64,000 nucleotides of DNA from Oceanospirillaceae bacterium. GTDB lineage: Bacteria > Pseudomonadota > Gammaproteobacteria > Pseudomonadales > Litoribrevibacteraceae. Below the pieces are notes generated by a model. The model searched no databases, was not told the origin of the DNA, and saw only the letters and a list, made by a program, of their open reading frames with translations. Where the stretch lies: contig JADFAD010000001.1 in the NCBI GenBank assembly GCA_015665455.1, positions 310,001-374,000 of the forward strand, given 5' to 3'. The position numbers and the translations under genes are program-made. Below are positions 1,724 to 15,116 of the stretch, in pieces (position 1 is the first letter of the stretch; every line of letters begins with the position of its first letter).

Positions 1724-1785
1724 TTTGTCCTTTCATTACGTTTCTAATGCCTTAACTTCCTGCTTATTTCTGGCTTCTTCTAAGT

Positions 1786-1800
1786 TGGCACAATATTTGT
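1786..1800 (+). promoter_or_regulatory. Candidate sigma-54 promoter of flgK
   Basis: TGGCAC, five bases (AATAT), then TTGT. The -24 half matches the RpoN consensus and the spacing to the -12 half is correct, but the -12 half has GT in place of the near-invariant GC, so the site is imperfect. It lies 64 bases before the flgK ATG. Sigma-54 control of flgKL is known in Vibrio. Confidence 0.45.
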
Positions 1801-6433: not shown

Positions 6434-8512
6434 TTAGTGTTTTGTTTTTTGGCAAATGAACTGATACATACCGGAAAATAGCTCTGGATTGTTTTGTTCA
6501 AATGTTTCCCAGTTATTTAGGTCTGTCATGTCTTGATCTAAAGGAAAAAGGTGCCCGAACTCCATTTTTCTCTGACTTGTTAAGCCTGTAAAACCTTGGA
6601 ATTGAAGATTAGACCCTTGAGTTAATTCCTTTAAACTCTCTATATTGTAGAGATGCTCAAGGGGGTTATAGAGTAGATCTGCACAACCAGCCATGTGGTA
6701 AAAGTCAGGGGAACTTAACAGTTTACTGTATTCTTCTTTTAGGTTGTCATCTGTCATGATTAACCAGCGCAGCTTGCGAATTTGTTCTTCGTCTGCATTG
6801 GTAAAGCTACCTATGATGTCTTGTTTCAGTTGATTGATTTTAAGTCTTGCTGTTTCACTGTATAACCCCAGTTTTATGAAACCGTATGGCTTTAAACAGT
6901 TGGTCAGCGCTTTAAGGCCAACTTCTGGCTTTGGCAAATGATGGAGTACTCCACTGCACTCAATGATGTCGAACTGTTCATCCAATTGTTCAACCTTAGT
7001 GAGGTCAAGAGATATGAAACGAACATTCTTGATTTTCAGCTTCTCTGCTTGTTTCTCTGCAAAAGCCAAACTGGTTGCACTGATATCAATCGCTGTGACA
7101 TTTACGTTTTGGAAATACCTTGCCGCTTTTAATGCTTGCAGTCCAGTTCCACAACCTGCAATGAGCATGTTTAGGGTTTTACCTTTCAGTTCGGTAGGTA
7201 TCTCTATGTGTGGTAATTCATGGCGTAATGCCTGAGTGTAATCGCATAAAGTATGAAAACCTAGGTTGCTCCAATGCGGGTATGGAAATCTTTCATATTG
7301 TTTCTTGATGTTATGGCTTGGTGGAACCGCATTACCTTCTGTTTGAAAACGTTGAGCTCTACGTACAATTTCTTCAGGCTCGGTAAGTGCTTTCTCCAAC
7401 ATAGGTTGAAGTAATTCAGGCCACTCACTGATTGCCGTGTTTTTGATTTTATCGCCTACTGCGGAGCCTGATAGAGGCTTGTACATGGAAAGAAGAATGA
7501 GTGCGCCTGTAATGTCTTGTGGCTGCCAGTCATCCATAGAGGTAAGTTGCTCTATCAAGTTCTCAACACTGGCAATCACTTCTACTTCGTCTTCATACAT
7601 AGACATGACGTAGCCATTTCTTGCTGACTGCATTGCAATGGCCGTTGCAAGCTGAATAAACTCATCAATGATGTGGCCTGCCTCCATACTTTGGCTAAGT
7701 ATAAGAAAGCGCAGCGCTCTGACTGTATTTTCAAGGTCTACGTTTGTACAGTGTACTTTTCTCACTGTTTCTAGGAATAACGTATCTTTAGCTATGGCAA
7801 AGATATCCAGCGGAGATTCTTTGTCTGCACTGATGCTGTACTTATGATCCAATGTGCTTGTTGCTAAATTTGAAAGTAAATCGTAATCAGCGTTTGGATA
7901 TTGCAGATAACGAATTAAGTCATGTTCTAATTCGACTTGGTAGTAATCTGCTTTTAACATTGCTGCAGAACGGAACACTCCTGACTGGATGTTCTCATTG
8001 AAATGGCCTGCACGGATCAAGTTGCGATAAGCTTGAAAAGATTCACCATAGCGGCCCATATTTAAATAGGTAAGTGCTAATCCTGAAAGTGATTGGGTAT
8101 GATTTTTATCAAGGGAAATTGCTTTCTTGAAGTTGGTTATTGCACTTTCAAATTTACGTTGCATGAGTTGCAAATACGCTAAGTTCGTAAAGAACATAGG
8201 TTGCCTGTGATCCAACTCAATAGCACTGTTAAAGTGATTAAGCGCTTTATCGTAGTCGTGTTGATCTAAAGAAATACGACCAATTAAATTTAGAACTTGA
8301 GGTTGTGATGAGTTTTTAAGATAGAGGTGTTCGCAAAGTCTTGCTGCTTTCTCTCGTTCTAACTCGCGCATTTCTTCTGTTAAGTTACCTTGGCATGAAC
8401 GGTTATAATGTTCGTTTGCTTGAATTAGCATACTTGCTACATCAAGCTGCATGGCACCAACAGGAGCTGTTAAGTTTTTATTGAAATCTGAGTTAAATGC
8501 TTGCTGTGCCAT
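6434..8512 (-). CDS. TPR-repeat protein with C-terminal class I SAM methyltransferase domain
   Basis: The 692-residue protein is probably cytoplasmic; no signal peptide or membrane segment is seen. Residues about 30-180 hold tandem tetratricopeptide repeats (for example the stretch from HYDKALNHFNSAIELDHRQ onward). A helical middle region leads to a QYERFPYPHW motif typical of TPR-methyltransferase fusions. Residues about 440-570 form a Rossmann methyltransferase: motif I MLIAGCGTG, acidic VTAIDIS, then CSGVLHHLP and LKPYGFIKLGLYSE. The start is preceded by GGAGG on the minus strand. The gene lies beside the flagellins and carries a sigma-54 site nearly identical to that of the minus-strand flagellin. 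A role in methylating flagellin, or a sugar on flagellin, is inferred. Flagellin lysine methylation by FliB is known in Salmonella, but this is a different family. The substrate is unknown. Confidence 0.85.
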   Translation of the reverse strand: MAQQAFNSDFNKNLTAPVGAMQLDVASMLIQANEHYNRSCQGNLTEEMRELEREKAARLCEHLYLKNSSQPQVLNLIGRISLDQHDYDKALNHFNSAIELDHRQPMFFTNLAYLQLMQRKFESAITNFKKAISLDKNHTQSLSGLALTYLNMGRYGESFQAYRNLIRAGHFNENIQSGVFRSAAMLKADYYQVELEHDLIRYLQYPNADYDLLSNLATSTLDHKYSISADKESPLDIFAIAKDTLFLETVRKVHCTNVDLENTVRALRFLILSQSMEAGHIIDEFIQLATAIAMQSARNGYVMSMYEDEVEVIASVENLIEQLTSMDDWQPQDITGALILLSMYKPLSGSAVGDKIKNTAISEWPELLQPMLEKALTEPEEIVRRAQRFQTEGNAVPPSHNIKKQYERFPYPHWSNLGFHTLCDYTQALRHELPHIEIPTELKGKTLNMLIAGCGTGLQALKAARYFQNVNVTAIDISATSLAFAEKQAEKLKIKNVRFISLDLTKVEQLDEQFDIIECSGVLHHLPKPEVGLKALTNCLKPYGFIKLGLYSETARLKINQLKQDIIGSFTNADEEQIRKLRWLIMTDDNLKEEYSKLLSSPDFYHMAGCADLLYNPLEHLYNIESLKELTQGSNLQFQGFTGLTSQRKMEFGHLFPLDQDMTDLNNWETFEQNNPELFSGMYQFICQKTKH

Positions 8513-8555
8513 AGCGGCAATCCTCCAGCGTAATTTACAACTTTCTTTTTATAAA

Positions 8556-8571
8556 GCTAAAGGCGTGCCAA
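8556..8571 (-). promoter_or_regulatory. Sigma-54 promoter of the TPR-methyltransferase gene
   Basis: On the minus strand the site reads TTGGCAC, GCCTT, TAGC. This gives the GG-N10-GC spacing required by RpoN with a perfect -24 half. It lies 44 bases before the ATG at 8512. The site differs by one base from the minus-strand flagellin site at 11915-11930. Confidence 0.8.
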
Positions 8572-8696: not shown

Positions 8697-8728
8697 TAAA
8701 AAGACCCAACAGGAGAACCTGTTGGGCC
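8697..8728 (-). terminator. Intrinsic terminator of the minus-strand flagellin gene
   Basis: CCCAACAGG (8705-8713) pairs perfectly with CCTGTTGGG (8718-8726) around a four-base loop. On the minus strand this is followed by TCTTTTT. It lies about 30 bases after the flagellin stop. Confidence 0.9.
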
Positions 8729-8755: not shown

Positions 8756-11700
8756 TTACTGAAGTAAACTAAGTACTTGCTCTGGTTGTGCGTTTGCTTG
8801 CGATAGTACAGAAATACCTGCCTGTTGAAGCACCTGAGTTCTCGACAGTTCAGCGGTTTCTGCCGCAAAGTCTGCATCACGAATACGCGAGTTCGATGCA
8901 CTCAAGTTTTCTGAAGTGATAGACAGGCTCTCAATGGTGGATTCAAAGCGGTTTTGATATGCACCCAGGTTTGCTCGTTCAAAGTTGACTGAGGCTACGG
9001 CGTTATCGATTGCGGCTAAAGCTTCGATGGCACCTTGTATGGTGGATATATCAATATCTTCAATGAAAGTACCTTCAGTTGCACCACCATACTCTCCCGT
9101 GATGAATCCTAATTCTGTGAGCGCATCAGGGCCATTTGAACCTGGTCCAATTTCAATTTGCTCTGCGGATGTTAATGTCAGTGTGGAGTATGTAGATTCA
9201 GCTGTATTGATATAGGTTGCCGTTGCTGCAAAATCACCATAACCAATACCATCTACTGATCCATCCAGACCAATGCCTTGGGTAAATGCTAGCGCTTGAG
9301 CTGCTGAAAATCCGTTGGCAGTATCGTCAGTGTCAATTGCAACAGAAATGTTACGACCGTCTTGAGCGGTTAATGTAATGGATGTCCCGTTATCCTCAGC
9401 AACAACCCCTGTTTGACCCGTAATAGCGTTAATGGCGGTAATCGCTGTTAATCGGTCTGATTCCGCATCTCCGGTACCGGCAATTAGGCTGGTTTGAACA
9501 CCGTTAATGTAGATAGAGCCTGTGCTGCCGATGGTTGCAGTGTTGGTGGACGAACCACCGGCAATTTCAGTCGGGTTGATCGATGCTGTTACACCGGTTT
9601 GTTCTGTTGACCTATTAATTGCTGCCTCTAGAGCGATACCGCTTGAAGCTCGGTCTGAAGTAAAAGCGGTATCATCTGATGCGGTATCGTCCAAAGAGCG
9701 AGATGCACTAATAACCACGCCATTAATAACCAAATCACCTTCATCAAGCGGTTGAGGTAAGTCAGTCCCTTCGGTTGAGTCTACTGTTGCAGTTACAGTA
9801 CTTTCCCCAAACCAAGCTGCCGCAGCTACATCACCGCCTGCACCACCACCGTTTTGGAAGTCAGAAATTTGAATGTTGGTACCATTAGCAACCAGTGACC
9901 CCGTCATTTCATAGGTGATTGTGCCTGTGCCGTCAGTTGATGGAGTTGCAACTATATCTAAGGCTGTTGCTGCTAAGGGAACAGCTAGCATCGCCGTTTG
10001 AACTGCTAACTCAACTTCAGCCGCAATCAGAGCTGCAGCGGCATCCAGAGTTAGACCTGTTAAATCTGAGGTTGCTAGAGCAAGGTTATCCCCATTAAAT
10101 ATGCTGTTTCCTTGGGCGTCTTGAACCACAAAATCAAAGGTTGCGTCATTGGTAGTGAAGTCAAAGACCTCTAATCCTGCAACTCCGCTGTTCGGGTTAA
10201 AGGTTGTAATAACTTCTTGAGGGCCTCGAGTAGCTACTCGTTCATCACTTACAGCAGCAGCAATCCCTGTTTCATAGTCGCCACGAACAAGTCCAACGTT
10301 ACTTAAATCACCGCTGCCAGAGCCGTCTCCACCGTCAATATCAACAGGGCCACCATCGGTTTTATTGTAAAGAGTGAATCCACCTTCGTAGGTCCCGTCT
10401 TCGCCATTGGTTGTTGTGACGGTTGCGTTATTGAACAGTTCCGCAACGTCACCAGCACCAGCACTGGCATCATTACCAGTGATAGTAAAGTTGTATCCGT
10501 TTGCGGCAGCTTCGCCAATTGCTCGATAAATGAAATCACCAGCGCTGTTAGGGTCTTCCACAACCTCGATGTCAATGCCATTATTTGCAAAGATAGATGT
10601 TAAGGAGGCCGCATCCGCAGCAACGGTTGCGTTACCACTTAAGTCGCCTTCAGCACCTAGTGTGATCGTTTGAGAGGCGGTGGTTACTGTATTTCCGTTT
10701 TTATCAATAAAGGTTACAGCAATCGTATCGGCTGTATAGTCACCGTTTGTGCCGGCAGGGGTTAGAGATTCTTCTGCGATTTCACCTCTTGGCAATCCTG
10801 TTGCTTCAGCAATGGCTTCAGTTACTCCAGTAATCGTAACATTACGGCCATCTTCTGCTTCTAAGAAGATGCCATTCACTGAAGAACCTGAGTCAACGGC
10901 TACAATACCCGTTTGGTCTGACTTAGCATTAATGGCTTCTATTACGGATGCTCGATCCGCATCACCGTTTTGGCCACCCCAACTGACAGTAATATCTACA
11001 CCGTTTACTTGAACAGTGGCTGGGCTGGTGGCTGTTGCTGCTAAGGTACTGCCTGTAATTTGAGTAGTGCCTTGAGCAACAGTTTTGTTTGGTTCCGCGA
11101 TTACATTCGTTTCATCTGTATGGGCATTGATGGCAGCAGACTTGGATATAGCTGAGGCTTCTGCGTTCGCAAATGATGCATTATCAGACGATGCAACGGA
11201 AGACTGGATTGTTTCGCCATTAATAACCAAATCACCCTTGGTTATTTTTTCGTCTGTAGCAATTGCACTAATGCCAGCGGTGTCTCCACCACCTAGAGAG
11301 TCAGTGGTTAATCGGCCAATTGTGACATCGATAGTTTCGCCTGCGTTGGCACCCACTTGAAATTGCGTATCAAACGAGCCATCTAGAAGTGTACGACCGT
11401 TGAAATTGGTTGTTTCTGACGTTCGTTGAATCTCATCAATAAGTTGCTGAGCTTCTGCATTCAGTGCTTCACGATCAATGTCATCGTAAGTGCCGTTGGC
11501 AGATTGCAGTGCTAGTTCTCTAATTCTTAATAGAGCATCTGTTACCGTTTTAAGTGCACCTTCTGCGGTTTGTGATAGTGAAATCGCATCAGATGAATTT
11601 CGAATGGCAACGTTCGTGCCTTCAATTTGCGCGTCAAATCGAGTGGAGATCGCTAGGCCGGCAGCATCATCCTTTGCACTGTTAATACGTAAGCCTGAAG

Positions 11701-11797
11701 ACAATCGTTGTAAGGCAGTTTGGTTATCTGCTTGTGACTGGTTCAAGTTTCTCTGAGCGTTCAGAGAAGCAATGTTGGTATTAATGATCTGAGCCAT
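8756..11797 (-). CDS. Giant flagellin, 1013 aa, sigma-54 type promoter
   Basis: Flagellin is the filament subunit. N-terminal D0/D1 (about 1-175) begins MAQIINTNIASLNAQRN and holds LQRLSSGLRINSAKDDAAGLAI. C-terminal D1/D0 (about 910-1013) contains ERANLGAYQNRFE and SRIRDADFAAETAELSRTQV. Between them lie about 730 residues; Salmonella FliC totals about 495. The insert holds two related modules at about 184-330 and 684-860. Each starts GDLVING, has an AIN..T.QTGV element, a second V/YINGV, then AINA.S/TGQTG and DGRN. A unique centre rich in Gly, Asp and Thr separates them. No cysteine is present. Minus-strand promoter and terminator are both visible. A single methyltransferase gene follows downstream under a near-identical promoter. 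It is probably the main or first-expressed filament protein, by analogy with sigma-54-dependent FlaA of Vibrio. Confidence 0.95.
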   Translation of the reverse strand: MAQIINTNIASLNAQRNLNQSQADNQTALQRLSSGLRINSAKDDAAGLAISTRFDAQIEGTNVAIRNSSDAISLSQTAEGALKTVTDALLRIRELALQSANGTYDDIDREALNAEAQQLIDEIQRTSETTNFNGRTLLDGSFDTQFQVGANAGETIDVTIGRLTTDSLGGGDTAGISAIATDEKITKGDLVINGETIQSSVASSDNASFANAEASAISKSAAINAHTDETNVIAEPNKTVAQGTTQITGSTLAATATSPATVQVNGVDITVSWGGQNGDADRASVIEAINAKSDQTGIVAVDSGSSVNGIFLEAEDGRNVTITGVTEAIAEATGLPRGEIAEESLTPAGTNGDYTADTIAVTFIDKNGNTVTTASQTITLGAEGDLSGNATVAADAASLTSIFANNGIDIEVVEDPNSAGDFIYRAIGEAAANGYNFTITGNDASAGAGDVAELFNNATVTTTNGEDGTYEGGFTLYNKTDGGPVDIDGGDGSGSGDLSNVGLVRGDYETGIAAAVSDERVATRGPQEVITTFNPNSGVAGLEVFDFTTNDATFDFVVQDAQGNSIFNGDNLALATSDLTGLTLDAAAALIAAEVELAVQTAMLAVPLAATALDIVATPSTDGTGTITYEMTGSLVANGTNIQISDFQNGGGAGGDVAAAAWFGESTVTATVDSTEGTDLPQPLDEGDLVINGVVISASRSLDDTASDDTAFTSDRASSGIALEAAINRSTEQTGVTASINPTEIAGGSSTNTATIGSTGSIYINGVQTSLIAGTGDAESDRLTAITAINAITGQTGVVAEDNGTSITLTAQDGRNISVAIDTDDTANGFSAAQALAFTQGIGLDGSVDGIGYGDFAATATYINTAESTYSTLTLTSAEQIEIGPGSNGPDALTELGFITGEYGGATEGTFIEDIDISTIQGAIEALAAIDNAVASVNFERANLGAYQNRFESTIESLSITSENLSASNSRIRDADFAAETAELSRTQVLQQAGISVLSQANAQPEQVLSLLQ

Positions 11798-11914: not shown

Positions 11915-11930
11915 GCTAAAGGTGTGCCAA
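11915..11930 (-). promoter_or_regulatory. Sigma-54 promoter of the minus-strand flagellin
   Basis: On the minus strand the site reads TTGGCAC, ACCTT, TAGC, with GG-N10-GC spacing and a consensus -24 half. It lies 118 bases before the ATG. It is almost the same as the site before the methyltransferase gene. Confidence 0.8.
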
Positions 11931-12014: not shown

Positions 12015-12042
12015 TAAAGTCACGGCAAGGGTTGGCCGATAG
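12015..12042 (+). promoter_or_regulatory. Weaker sigma-28-like site upstream of the plus-strand flagellin
   Basis: TAAA and GCCGATAG are separated by 16 bases. The -10 half is close to the FliA consensus GCCGATAA but the spacer is one base longer than usual. It lies about 165 bases before the ATG and would be a second promoter behind the better site at 12100. Confidence 0.3.
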
Positions 12043-12206: not shown

Positions 12207-15116
12207 ATGCCACAGATTATTAACACAAACATCGCATCGCTAAATGCGCAGCGTAACTTAGATAAAGCCCAGTCGGGCAACGATACCGCTTTACAGCGTC
12301 TTTCTTCTGGTCTTCGTATTAACAGTTCGAAAGATGATGCTGCGGGTTTATCAATTTCCACTCGTTTTGAAGCTCAGTTAAGTGGTACTGATGTAGCGAT
12401 TCGAAATGCGGGTGACGGTATTTCATTATCTCAAACGGCTGAAGGTGCATTGGATTCAATCACATCAAACCTTCAGCGTGTTCGTGAGCTAGCGGTGCAG
12501 TCTGCCAACGGCACGAACGCAGACGTTGATCGTGATGCTCTAAATGCTGAAGCTCAACAGCTTCTAGAAGAGATCTCTAACACGGCTGAAAATGCTAACT
12601 ATAACGGCATTAACTTGCTAGATGGTTCGTTCTCAACGTCATTACAGGTTGGTGCGAATGCGGGTGATACATTAGACGTATCTATTGGTGCAGTTACTAC
12701 TGATACTCTAGGTGTTGCGGATTCTGCAGGCTTGAGCGCAATTGGTTCAGACAATGCAATCGGTAACGGTGATTTGACTATTAACGGTATTGAGATTGCG
12801 TCTTCTACTTCGGATGATGATACTTTCTCTACGGATAACGCGTCTGCTTCTGCAATCTCCAAGGCTGCAGCCATTAACAAGAGTACTGAAGATACTGGTG
12901 TATCCGCTTTTGCAAATGAGAATACTGTTTCTGGTAGTGAGATGACGGCGGCTGCTGGTAACGGTAGTGTAGACATCAACGGTGTCACAATCAGTCTTTC
13001 TACTTCTGCAGATGCAGCGGCATCACGAGCTTCAGTCGTTCAAGCGATTAATGCCGTAAGTGATCAAACGGGTGTAGTAGCTACAGACAGTGGAAGCGAT
13101 GTTAATGGAATTAGTCTAGCTGCTTCTGATGGTCGAAATGTTGAAGTTGCTAACTTTACTACGGTGACTGCGGAGAGTACTGGTTTAGCTGCTGCAGATA
13201 CATACGAGGGCGGTTACACCTTAGTCTCTTCAGACGGTTCTGATATTGAAGTTTCAGGTGGTGACGGAACGGGTACCGGTAATTTGGCGAATGCTGGATT
13301 AACAGCGGGTACGTTCTCTGGTAATGCTGCTGCGTTGTCTGCTGAGTCTACGGCTGTTCGTTCAGGTGAACAGGCTACAACAGGCGGAACGGCTTCGAAT
13401 ACCTTAGCTGCTGCGGGTGCTAATCAGCTTACTGCCGATGAAACAACGGCTGTGTTTAGTGATGGAACAACTGTTCTAGAGGACGGTAATACGGTTATAG
13501 ATTTGGCGTCGTCTATCAATGCTTCTGCAGTAGGTGGCAGTATTGTTGCCTATGAAAAAGCAGATCTTGTTATTGATTTTGGAAATGCTGCATCAACCTT
13601 TGTTGCAGGGGATGACTTTATCATTGGTGCAGGTACGTTAGCTGCTGCTACTACGGTTACTTGGACTGCTGGTACAAGTAAAGAAAACTTTGCCAATGAA
13701 ATCAATAATGCAGACTACTCTGGCTCTAATATAGATGTTAAAGCATCTTATGATGCGGATACTGATTTTCTGTCGCTAGAGATTAAAGCTTATGGTACTG
13801 ATGGTACCGATGATGAAGAAATTGATTTCTCATTTAGTGCAGGAGATCTTCAATTAGTATCTGTTAATGGCAATGCCGCAGCCGGAACTATCGGTGGTAA
13901 TGTCGTATCGGGTGTATTAGCTTTTGAGAGCTTGGATGATACGATTACTTCAGTATCAGTTACAGATGCGGGTGCCCCACCTCCTGCAAACTTGTTTGAA
14001 AATAATGGTGAGGCAATTGATCTGGGTCGTGTAAATACACTTGATAGTGGTGATCTTGTTCTTAATGGCGTTGCGATTGGGGCTGCACAAGCTTCCGACG
14101 ATAAGTCGACAGCAACATTATCTAGTAACGGTGACATAATTACTTCGGTTGATAAAAGTGCAAACGGCATTTCAATTGCTGAAGCAATTAACCGTAACTC
14201 AGCAGAAACGGGTGTTACTGCTACGGTAAACGAAACTAAGGTAATCGGTGGTGATGGTAGCAATGTGGCCGAGGCGGCAGCAGTCTCAACGGCTGGTGAT
14301 GCTGCTAACCTTTACATTAATGGTGTAGGCATTGGTGCGGTTACACTTGCTGATGTTACTGGAAGCCCTGGTACCATTGATACTGATAAGGCAAAAGCGG
14401 ATGCTTTGGCTGCTATTAATGCGGTGTCTGGCCAAACGGGTGTAACAGCTGAGGATAACGGTGTTTCTCTAACGTTGACTGCAGCAGATGGTCGAGCAAT
14501 TTCTGTTGCGATTGATACTGATGCAGCAGCAAATACCGGTACAGCAGGCGATGCAATCAGTTCTATTTTAGGTCTAGACTCTCAAGTAGACGGGATCGGT
14601 GCTACTGACTTTGCTGAATTGGCCGGTTCAGGTGCGGGTTTGACTGCTGCACAGGTTGAAGCAGTTGCTTATGAGACTACAAACTCTTCAGTTAGTTTAT
14701 CCGCTGGTGGTCAGTTCACTATTGAAGCTGGAGCGAATGGTGCTGACGAATTGGCAAGTCTTGGTTTATCTGCTGGTACATTTGGTGCTGCTGAAGATGG
14801 TCAGTTCCTTAAGGATGTGGATATTTCAACGGTAGATGGTGCTAATGCTGCGCTGTCTGCAATCGATAATGCCTTGAGTCAGGTGGCTTCTGAACGTGCA
14901 AACTTAGGTGCGACTCAGAATCGTTTGGATTCAACGGTAAGTAACCTAGCGATCAACAAGGAAAACTTGGCTGCTGCTAACTCTCGAATTAAGGATGCGG
15001 ATTTCGCAGCCGAAACGGCAGAGTTGTCACGTACTCAGGTATTGATTCAGGCTGGTATCTCTGTATTGGCTCAGGCAAATGCCCGTCCACAGCAGGTATT
15101 GTCATTATTGGGTTAA
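12207..15116 (+). CDS. Giant flagellin, 969 aa, sigma-28 type promoter
   Basis: This is a second filament subunit, divergent from the first. The ATG at 12207 is chosen over an in-frame ATG at 12165 because GGAG (12195-12198) lies eight bases before it and the protein then begins MPQIINTNIASLNAQRN, aligning with the neighbour flagellin. N-terminal D0/D1 covers about 1-175 and C-terminal D1/D0 about 870-969 (ERANLGATQNRLD, SRIKDADFAAETAELSRTQV). The central insert carries two modules like those of the other flagellin (about 185-325 and 611-770), separated by a unique stretch. A TYEGGYTL element is also shared. No cysteine is present. Ends are nearly identical between the two proteins while the centres diverge, as expected of duplicated flagellins under surface variation. 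A terminator follows directly. Confidence 0.95.
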   Translation: MPQIINTNIASLNAQRNLDKAQSGNDTALQRLSSGLRINSSKDDAAGLSISTRFEAQLSGTDVAIRNAGDGISLSQTAEGALDSITSNLQRVRELAVQSANGTNADVDRDALNAEAQQLLEEISNTAENANYNGINLLDGSFSTSLQVGANAGDTLDVSIGAVTTDTLGVADSAGLSAIGSDNAIGNGDLTINGIEIASSTSDDDTFSTDNASASAISKAAAINKSTEDTGVSAFANENTVSGSEMTAAAGNGSVDINGVTISLSTSADAAASRASVVQAINAVSDQTGVVATDSGSDVNGISLAASDGRNVEVANFTTVTAESTGLAAADTYEGGYTLVSSDGSDIEVSGGDGTGTGNLANAGLTAGTFSGNAAALSAESTAVRSGEQATTGGTASNTLAAAGANQLTADETTAVFSDGTTVLEDGNTVIDLASSINASAVGGSIVAYEKADLVIDFGNAASTFVAGDDFIIGAGTLAAATTVTWTAGTSKENFANEINNADYSGSNIDVKASYDADTDFLSLEIKAYGTDGTDDEEIDFSFSAGDLQLVSVNGNAAAGTIGGNVVSGVLAFESLDDTITSVSVTDAGAPPPANLFENNGEAIDLGRVNTLDSGDLVLNGVAIGAAQASDDKSTATLSSNGDIITSVDKSANGISIAEAINRNSAETGVTATVNETKVIGGDGSNVAEAAAVSTAGDAANLYINGVGIGAVTLADVTGSPGTIDTDKAKADALAAINAVSGQTGVTAEDNGVSLTLTAADGRAISVAIDTDAAANTGTAGDAISSILGLDSQVDGIGATDFAELAGSGAGLTAAQVEAVAYETTNSSVSLSAGGQFTIEAGANGADELASLGLSAGTFGAAEDGQFLKDVDISTVDGANAALSAIDNALSQVASERANLGATQNRLDSTVSNLAINKENLAAANSRIKDADFAAETAELSRTQVLIQAGISVLAQANARPQQVLSLLG

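Follow-up and report, generated by a model that had tools for sequence, protein, structure and literature searches.

A stretch of 64,000 nucleotides from a gammaproteobacterium, hereafter the window, carries next to a flagellin gene a reading frame for a 692-residue protein whose N-terminal half is made of TPR repeats and whose C-terminal half is a class I methyltransferase, and comparison among relatives places this putative methyltransferase with the flagellum. The explanation that we rank first, and still hold tentatively, is that it is a cytoplasmic enzyme of the flagellar regulon which would dock on flagellin through its TPR half and methylate a few flagellin side chains, most likely lysines, before export.

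The gene lies at 6434..8512 on the minus strand and starts with ATG, and its two-part architecture is seen both in Pfam matches and in an AlphaFold model of the whole protein (mean pLDDT 91.8, pTM 0.89, 39 aligned homologues). Pfam places TPR repeats at residues about 72-165 (8018..8299, minus strand), and in the model the helices run on past these repeats to about residue 386. A SAM-binding class I core follows at residues about 447-552 (6857..7174, minus strand; Pfam), with the motifs AGCGTG and ECSGVLHH, and a conserved C-terminal stretch covers residues 602-692 (6434..6709, minus strand), with the family motifs DFYS.SGCRDLLFH.QEH and W..FE..P..F.GMYQFY.Q. Among the 25 of 59 NCBIfam models listed for the protein, none passes its own cut-off. 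The gene itself is the one long match in the window genome, and three other matches there cover the methyltransferase core only. As the sequence-only reading had it, the gene adjoins a flagellin: it stands between a convergent flgL and fliC1, the latter on the same strand, with fliC2, flaG, fliD, fliS and fleQ farther along (flagellins were named by Pfam, the remaining flagellar genes from their sequence).

Among solved structures, those closest to the methyltransferase half belong to protein lysine methyltransferases. Rv2067c of Mycobacterium tuberculosis (PDB 8hkr), described as a secreted class I histone H3K79 lysine methyltransferase acting on host histone (PMC10739865), superimposes with Z 24.8 over 263 residues (rmsd 3.1, 24% identity), and the window protein also matches it in sequence (E = 2e-17). 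The likeness extends over the catalytic domain with its inserted helices and over the dimerization subdomains as delimited in Rv2067c (residues 16-303, with domain limits taken from PMC10739865), and both proteins have QY....YP, LY....R and the C-terminal stretch in the sequence alignment. Two differences stand out: the roughly 100-residue C-terminal alpha+beta domain of Rv2067c has no counterpart in the window protein, since residue 692, the last, aligns to residue 303 of 407, and the window protein carries the N-terminal TPR half instead. The rickettsial PKMT1 and PKMT2 share the class I fold (Z 18.4-20.2 over 256-261 residues), and the C-terminal stretch falls within the match to them as it does within that to Rv2067c. 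These two and KmtA are outer-membrane-protein lysine methyltransferases, with surface proteins as substrates. The associated domains PF10119 (MethyTransf_Reg) and PF21782 (PKMT_2nd) are absent from the best 25 of the 28 Pfam families that match the window protein at E <= 0.01 (the last of the 25 has E = 0.0016, and the other three rank lower). The tRNA enzyme CmoM reaches Z 17.7 against the same half, so that Rv2067c stands out clearly and the PKMT enzymes modestly; the VIA-align lists of PDB chains re-examine matches that Foldseek itself had returned. Kinship of fold with lysine methyltransferases does not prove lysine specificity.

Structure comparison likens the N-terminal half to TPR proteins such as O-GlcNAc transferase. 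The same layout, an N-terminal TPR half joined to a C-terminal modifying enzyme, is found in FlmG, the Caulobacter glycosyltransferase for flagellins, whose TPR half binds flagellins and is required for efficient modification (PMC7591256), although the catalytic half of FlmG is a GT-B glycosyltransferase and that of the window protein a class I methyltransferase. FliB, a flagellin lysine methyltransferase with a [4Fe-4S] cluster on CX4CX3CC (PMC8598068), resembles the window enzyme in its product, which is proposed to be methylated flagellin here too. The FliB motif is absent from all 692 residues, and this absence together with the class I fold upholds the earlier view that the enzyme belongs to a family distinct from FliB. 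The FliB model NF038110 of NCBIfam has no match in the window genome, and likewise none in 14 control genomes. In Shewanella oneidensis the sfm flagellin-modification cluster includes SfmD (SO_3264), which is predicted to be a SAM-dependent methyltransferase (PMC3765264); it has 395 residues against the 692 of the window protein, a comparison made with SfmD by description only.

A sigma-54-type -24/-12 element, TTGGCACGCCTTTAGC (8556..8571, minus strand), lies 43 bases before the ATG of the gene, with a Shine-Dalgarno-like GGAGGA at 8521..8526 on the same strand. Upstream of fliC1 we find TTGGCACACCTTTAGC (11915..11930, minus strand), which differs from it by one base, just as had been read from the sequence. 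The pattern covering both, TTGGCACNNNNNTWGC (TTGGCAC-N5-TWGC), which was picked once the sites were known, matches the window at exactly these two places, where 0.09 would be expected by chance, and none of 100 shuffles reaches two; its one-mismatch form is unremarkable in the window (16 found, 11.5 expected). A terminator-like hairpin 3' of fliC1 and ahead of the gene (8703..8728, minus strand; hairpin scan) separates the two, so that the promoter is probably the gene's own and the gene probably does not form a simple operon with fliC1, although such hairpins are equally common in shuffled sequence (6 found, 5.6 expected). The pattern scan gave no good sigma-54-type site upstream of fliC2. 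Before fliC2 we noted by eye TAAAGTCA-N12-GCCGATAG (12015..12042, plus strand), which resembles the sigma-28 consensus; a strict sigma-28 pattern brought up nothing. The two divergent giant flagellin genes thus seem, by eye, to differ in promoter type, fliC1 being sigma-54-like and fliC2 sigma-28-like. A further sigma-54-like sequence, TTGGCAC-N5-TTGT, one base off, precedes flgK at window positions 1785-1800, and no RNA family reaches its gathering score in the window between 5800 and 12200.

The sigma-54-type site recurs among relatives. Upstream regions were scored with GG and GC mandatory and at least 7 of 8 further positions matching, a score devised for this analysis from the -24/-12 consensus; each homologue sequence was counted once, and six rows without flagellar linkage were dropped for too little upstream sequence. 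At this threshold a site precedes 46 of 66 flagellum-linked homologues and none of 37 unlinked ones. The 20 linked homologues without a site include L052, L054, L055 and L091, in which a near-perfect site 34 bases before the start fails the GC rule only; one unlinked row, L071, falls just below the threshold. Other genes of the same loci seldom have such a site: FleQ 1/42, FliS 0/11, FliC 6/39, FliD 2/32, FlaG 0/33 and unassigned reading frames of at least 250 residues 39/523. By motif, therefore, and by its recurrence in relatives, the gene appears to be a member of the flagellar sigma-54 regulon.

A long homologue (E <= 6.4e-38) is present in 44 of 293 genomes of the order, in the family codes f1, f6, f9, f17, f19, f21, f34, f38, f39, f44, f45 and f47. 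All 44 encode a Flagellin_N protein, which is present in 218 of the whole set of 293 (hypergeometric p = 6e-7, kinship ignored). Of the 43 genomes besides the window genome that have the gene, 38 supplied the 40 homologue loci that we fetched, and in 34 of these loci, spanning nine family codes (f1, f6, f9, f17, f19, f21, f34, f38 and f39), a core flagellar gene lies within 5 kb. The six loci without one are L063, L066 and L067 (all f47), L065 (f39), L068 (f44) and L071 (f19); the genome of L071 (G269) has fliC about 10 kb from the homologue, which makes a 35th locus if this greater distance is allowed. Four of the 44 genomes have no flagellar neighbour (G151, G160, G173 and G045, the last with its locus outside the fetched set), and G219 carries an additional, unlinked copy. 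Together, the co-occurrence, the neighbourhood and the promoter counts support the flagellar role that the sequence-only reading had called likely, and on comparative grounds we regard this predicted role as well supported.

The lysine content of the flagellins bears on the possible target. FliC1 (8756..11797, minus strand; ORF and Pfam) has 9 lysines in 1013 residues, against 234 in 3,630 residues of the KmtA substrate (PMC11784438), and FliC2 (12207..15116, plus strand; ORF and Pfam) has 16 in 969; another contig of the window genome carries one more long-scoring Flagellin_N gene, the third, for about 273 residues (G000:C11:73975-74364, L250). In the central region lysine averages 1.71% across 39 flagellins from genomes with the gene and 2.06% across 20 from genomes without it (p = 0.42), and some partner flagellins (L069, L075, L185 and L186) have zero or one central lysine. 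Lysines so few and not enriched do not support massive methylation of flagellin lysines, and that reading was rejected. Nor was the suggestion borne out that the gene goes with giant flagellins, the median lengths being 732 residues with the gene (n = 39) and 589 without (n = 20; p = 0.10), and in f19 genomes with the gene the flagellins have only about 380-510 residues.

K42 (INSAKDDA), the single lysine that the flagellins widely share, was considered as a target. It is a lysine in 35 of 37 flagellins from genomes with the gene and in 37 of 59 from genomes without it (p = 0.0005, kinship ignored), where the 60 no-gene flagellins were hand-picked among the matches listed and the count left out truncated flagellins, FlgL rows and the one no-gene row of 60 without the motif. 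In the Aeromonas caviae flagellin K42 is reported to be di- or trimethylated (PMC9290775). Other flagellins of the f34 genomes have R, A or Q at this position, and the three long flagellins of the sister genus G001 have R, A and A; because the G001 flagellins have no lysine there, K42 was rejected as a universal target and dropped as a general one. Separately, three f34 genomes (L059:3457-9622, L060 and L061) carry a methyltransferase gene of the OM-PKMT kind between fliC and the homologue; in L059, where this was tested, its product contains PF10119 and PF21782, and it is possibly a flagellin lysine methyltransferase of the PKMT kind.

The main rival, which we consider less likely, is that the enzyme methylates a flagellin glycan, as a nucleotide sugar or as a protein-bound sugar, and not the polypeptide. 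The Shewanella flagellin glycan does carry O-methyl groups (PMC3765264), and the glycosyltransferase Maf is enriched alongside the gene: 16 of the 44 genomes that have the gene encode Maf, against 24 of 174 that encode flagellin and lack the gene (p = 0.002, kinship ignored). Since 28 of the 44, the window genome among them, have no Maf in a systematic search that covered Maf only, the gene is independent of this one known flagellin glycosyltransferase. NeuB and a fused PseF-PseG-like protein, below the NCBIfam cut-offs, do occur elsewhere in the window genome, in a polysaccharide-type cluster on another contig (L191:7868-10620, G000:C9). Sugar genes and a second methyltransferase in G001 also speak for a glycan: the fliD-fliS interval of this genus (L197:8057-17799) encodes TPR proteins of 1119 and 555 residues, a GDP-mannose dehydratase, ManC and that methyltransferase, and is likely a flagellin glycosylation island, which is absent between fliD and fliS of the window. 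So does a possible TPR glycosyltransferase (P0002) that lies on the other side of fliC in the same three f34 loci. A sequence pattern in its second half suggested an FlmG-like glycosyltransferase. Neither Pfam nor a PDB sequence search supported a glycosyltransferase in this half; SPY and OGT top the Foldseek list for the model of the protein (pLDDT 78.8, moderate), and because these matches rest largely on the TPR part, the FlmG-like assignment is kept as tentative. This second half has homologues in six of the 44 gene-bearing genomes and none in the window genome. As an observation of its own, a protein with an HMW1C N-terminal domain is encoded beside fliC in the f19 genome G269 (L198:8691-10565), which suggests N-glycosylation of flagellin there. 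Against a glycan substrate, finally, stands the fold, which is nearest to protein and not to sugar methyltransferases.

That the enzyme belongs to the flagellar regulon and acts on another flagellar protein (the FliD cap, FlgL or FlgK, the FliS chaperone) or on a regulator seems to us rather improbable. The commonest neighbours within 5 kb would fit such a role, fliS being found beside 47 of 108 homologue rows, fleQ beside 42 and fliD beside 27; these genes, however, belong to the same cluster anyway. Moreover, fliC directly or closely precedes the homologue on the same strand in the window, in f34 and in five of six f19 loci, and the promoter type of the window gene is common to fliC1 and not to fliC2. 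In f6 and f38 loci the homologue is mostly divergent from fliS, with fliD farther along. FliD itself has about 1265-1350 residues in the f6 and f38 loci L037, L039-L041, L047-L050 and L054-L056, and 827 in the window.

A scan of species genomes, from which the best 80 of 563 relatives were taken, returned as the closest Saccharospirillum, Reinekea, Oleispira, Thalassolituus, Bermanella, Bacterioplanes, Natronospirillum, Pseudoteredinibacter and others. A flagellar gene lies within the fetched stretch in 45 of these 80, including all of the first 40 listed; the other 35, from SAR116, Rhodospirillales, Prochlorococcus, Geobacter, Desulfogranum and others, have none there. Homologues consistently away from flagella had been named as a refutation of the flagellar role: many remote ones among the best 80 do lie apart, the near ones do not, and therefore the flagellar members make up one part of the family. 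In a quick tree with 109 rows (66 flagellum-linked, 43 without a flagellar gene in the fetched stretch) the linkage label changes six times against a shuffled mean of 33.7, and none of 500 shuffles was as low. One large group holds 59 linked and two unlinked rows, with weak support at its base (37); seven linked rows, three of them from f34, lie elsewhere on the tree. The family thus appears wide and its flagellar members cluster on the tree, which is not proof of a single origin. A broad housekeeping or envelope enzyme standing beside flagellar genes by chance, as the 43 rows just mentioned, Prochlorococcus among them, might suggest, is very improbable given that linkage, co-occurrence and promoter coincide in nine family codes and the genera named.

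We therefore return to modification of flagellin itself. The fold favours protein lysine as the substrate, and the lysine content of the flagellins disfavours massive lysine methylation. Set against that low content, the fold and the occurrence of the gene with or without Maf tentatively favour the view that a small number of side chains on flagellin, probably lysines, are methylated. The gene would be expressed, like fliC1, from its own sigma-54-type promoter, as the conserved sites suggest, presumably under activation by FleQ. The TPR half may dock on flagellin in the cytoplasm, which is plausible because FlmG works in this way, and the C-terminal half would then use SAM to methylate flagellin that has yet to be exported, with a small number of lysine side chains, not many, as the most likely targets; flagellin as substrate and lysine as residue are thus both predictions of this scheme. 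More doubtfully than the scheme as such, we suggest that it may amount to a second way of methylating flagellin lysines, one that uses no iron-sulfur cluster but a TPR-docked, PKMT-like class I enzyme with its own recurring sigma-54 promoter. With equal reserve, the design could be described as a FlmG docking half joined to a methyltransferase, found in the flagellar cluster across nine or more family codes within a single gammaproteobacterial order.

Lysine methylation has been mapped in the flagellins of Shewanella and Aeromonas (PMC3765264, PMC9290775). PMC3765264 leaves the enzyme behind it open, and PMC9290775 names none for Aeromonas and cites Sun et al. 2013 for a mutant in a putative Shewanella methyltransferase without motility defect. 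FliB is the only enzyme that we saw named in the titles and abstract openings of the papers listed on flagellin methylation, and a literature search, in which titles under subscription were partly covered, brought up no work that we recognised as dealing with a TPR-methyltransferase of this kind. The enzyme probably adds a variant to the known flagellin-modifying proteins, one that recurs in the flagellar clusters of many marine bacteria, and as a recurring, promoter-linked candidate it makes the question of the flagellin-methylating enzyme testable. If the proposal is true, the design of a TPR dock plus a modifying enzyme would reach from glycosylation to methylation.
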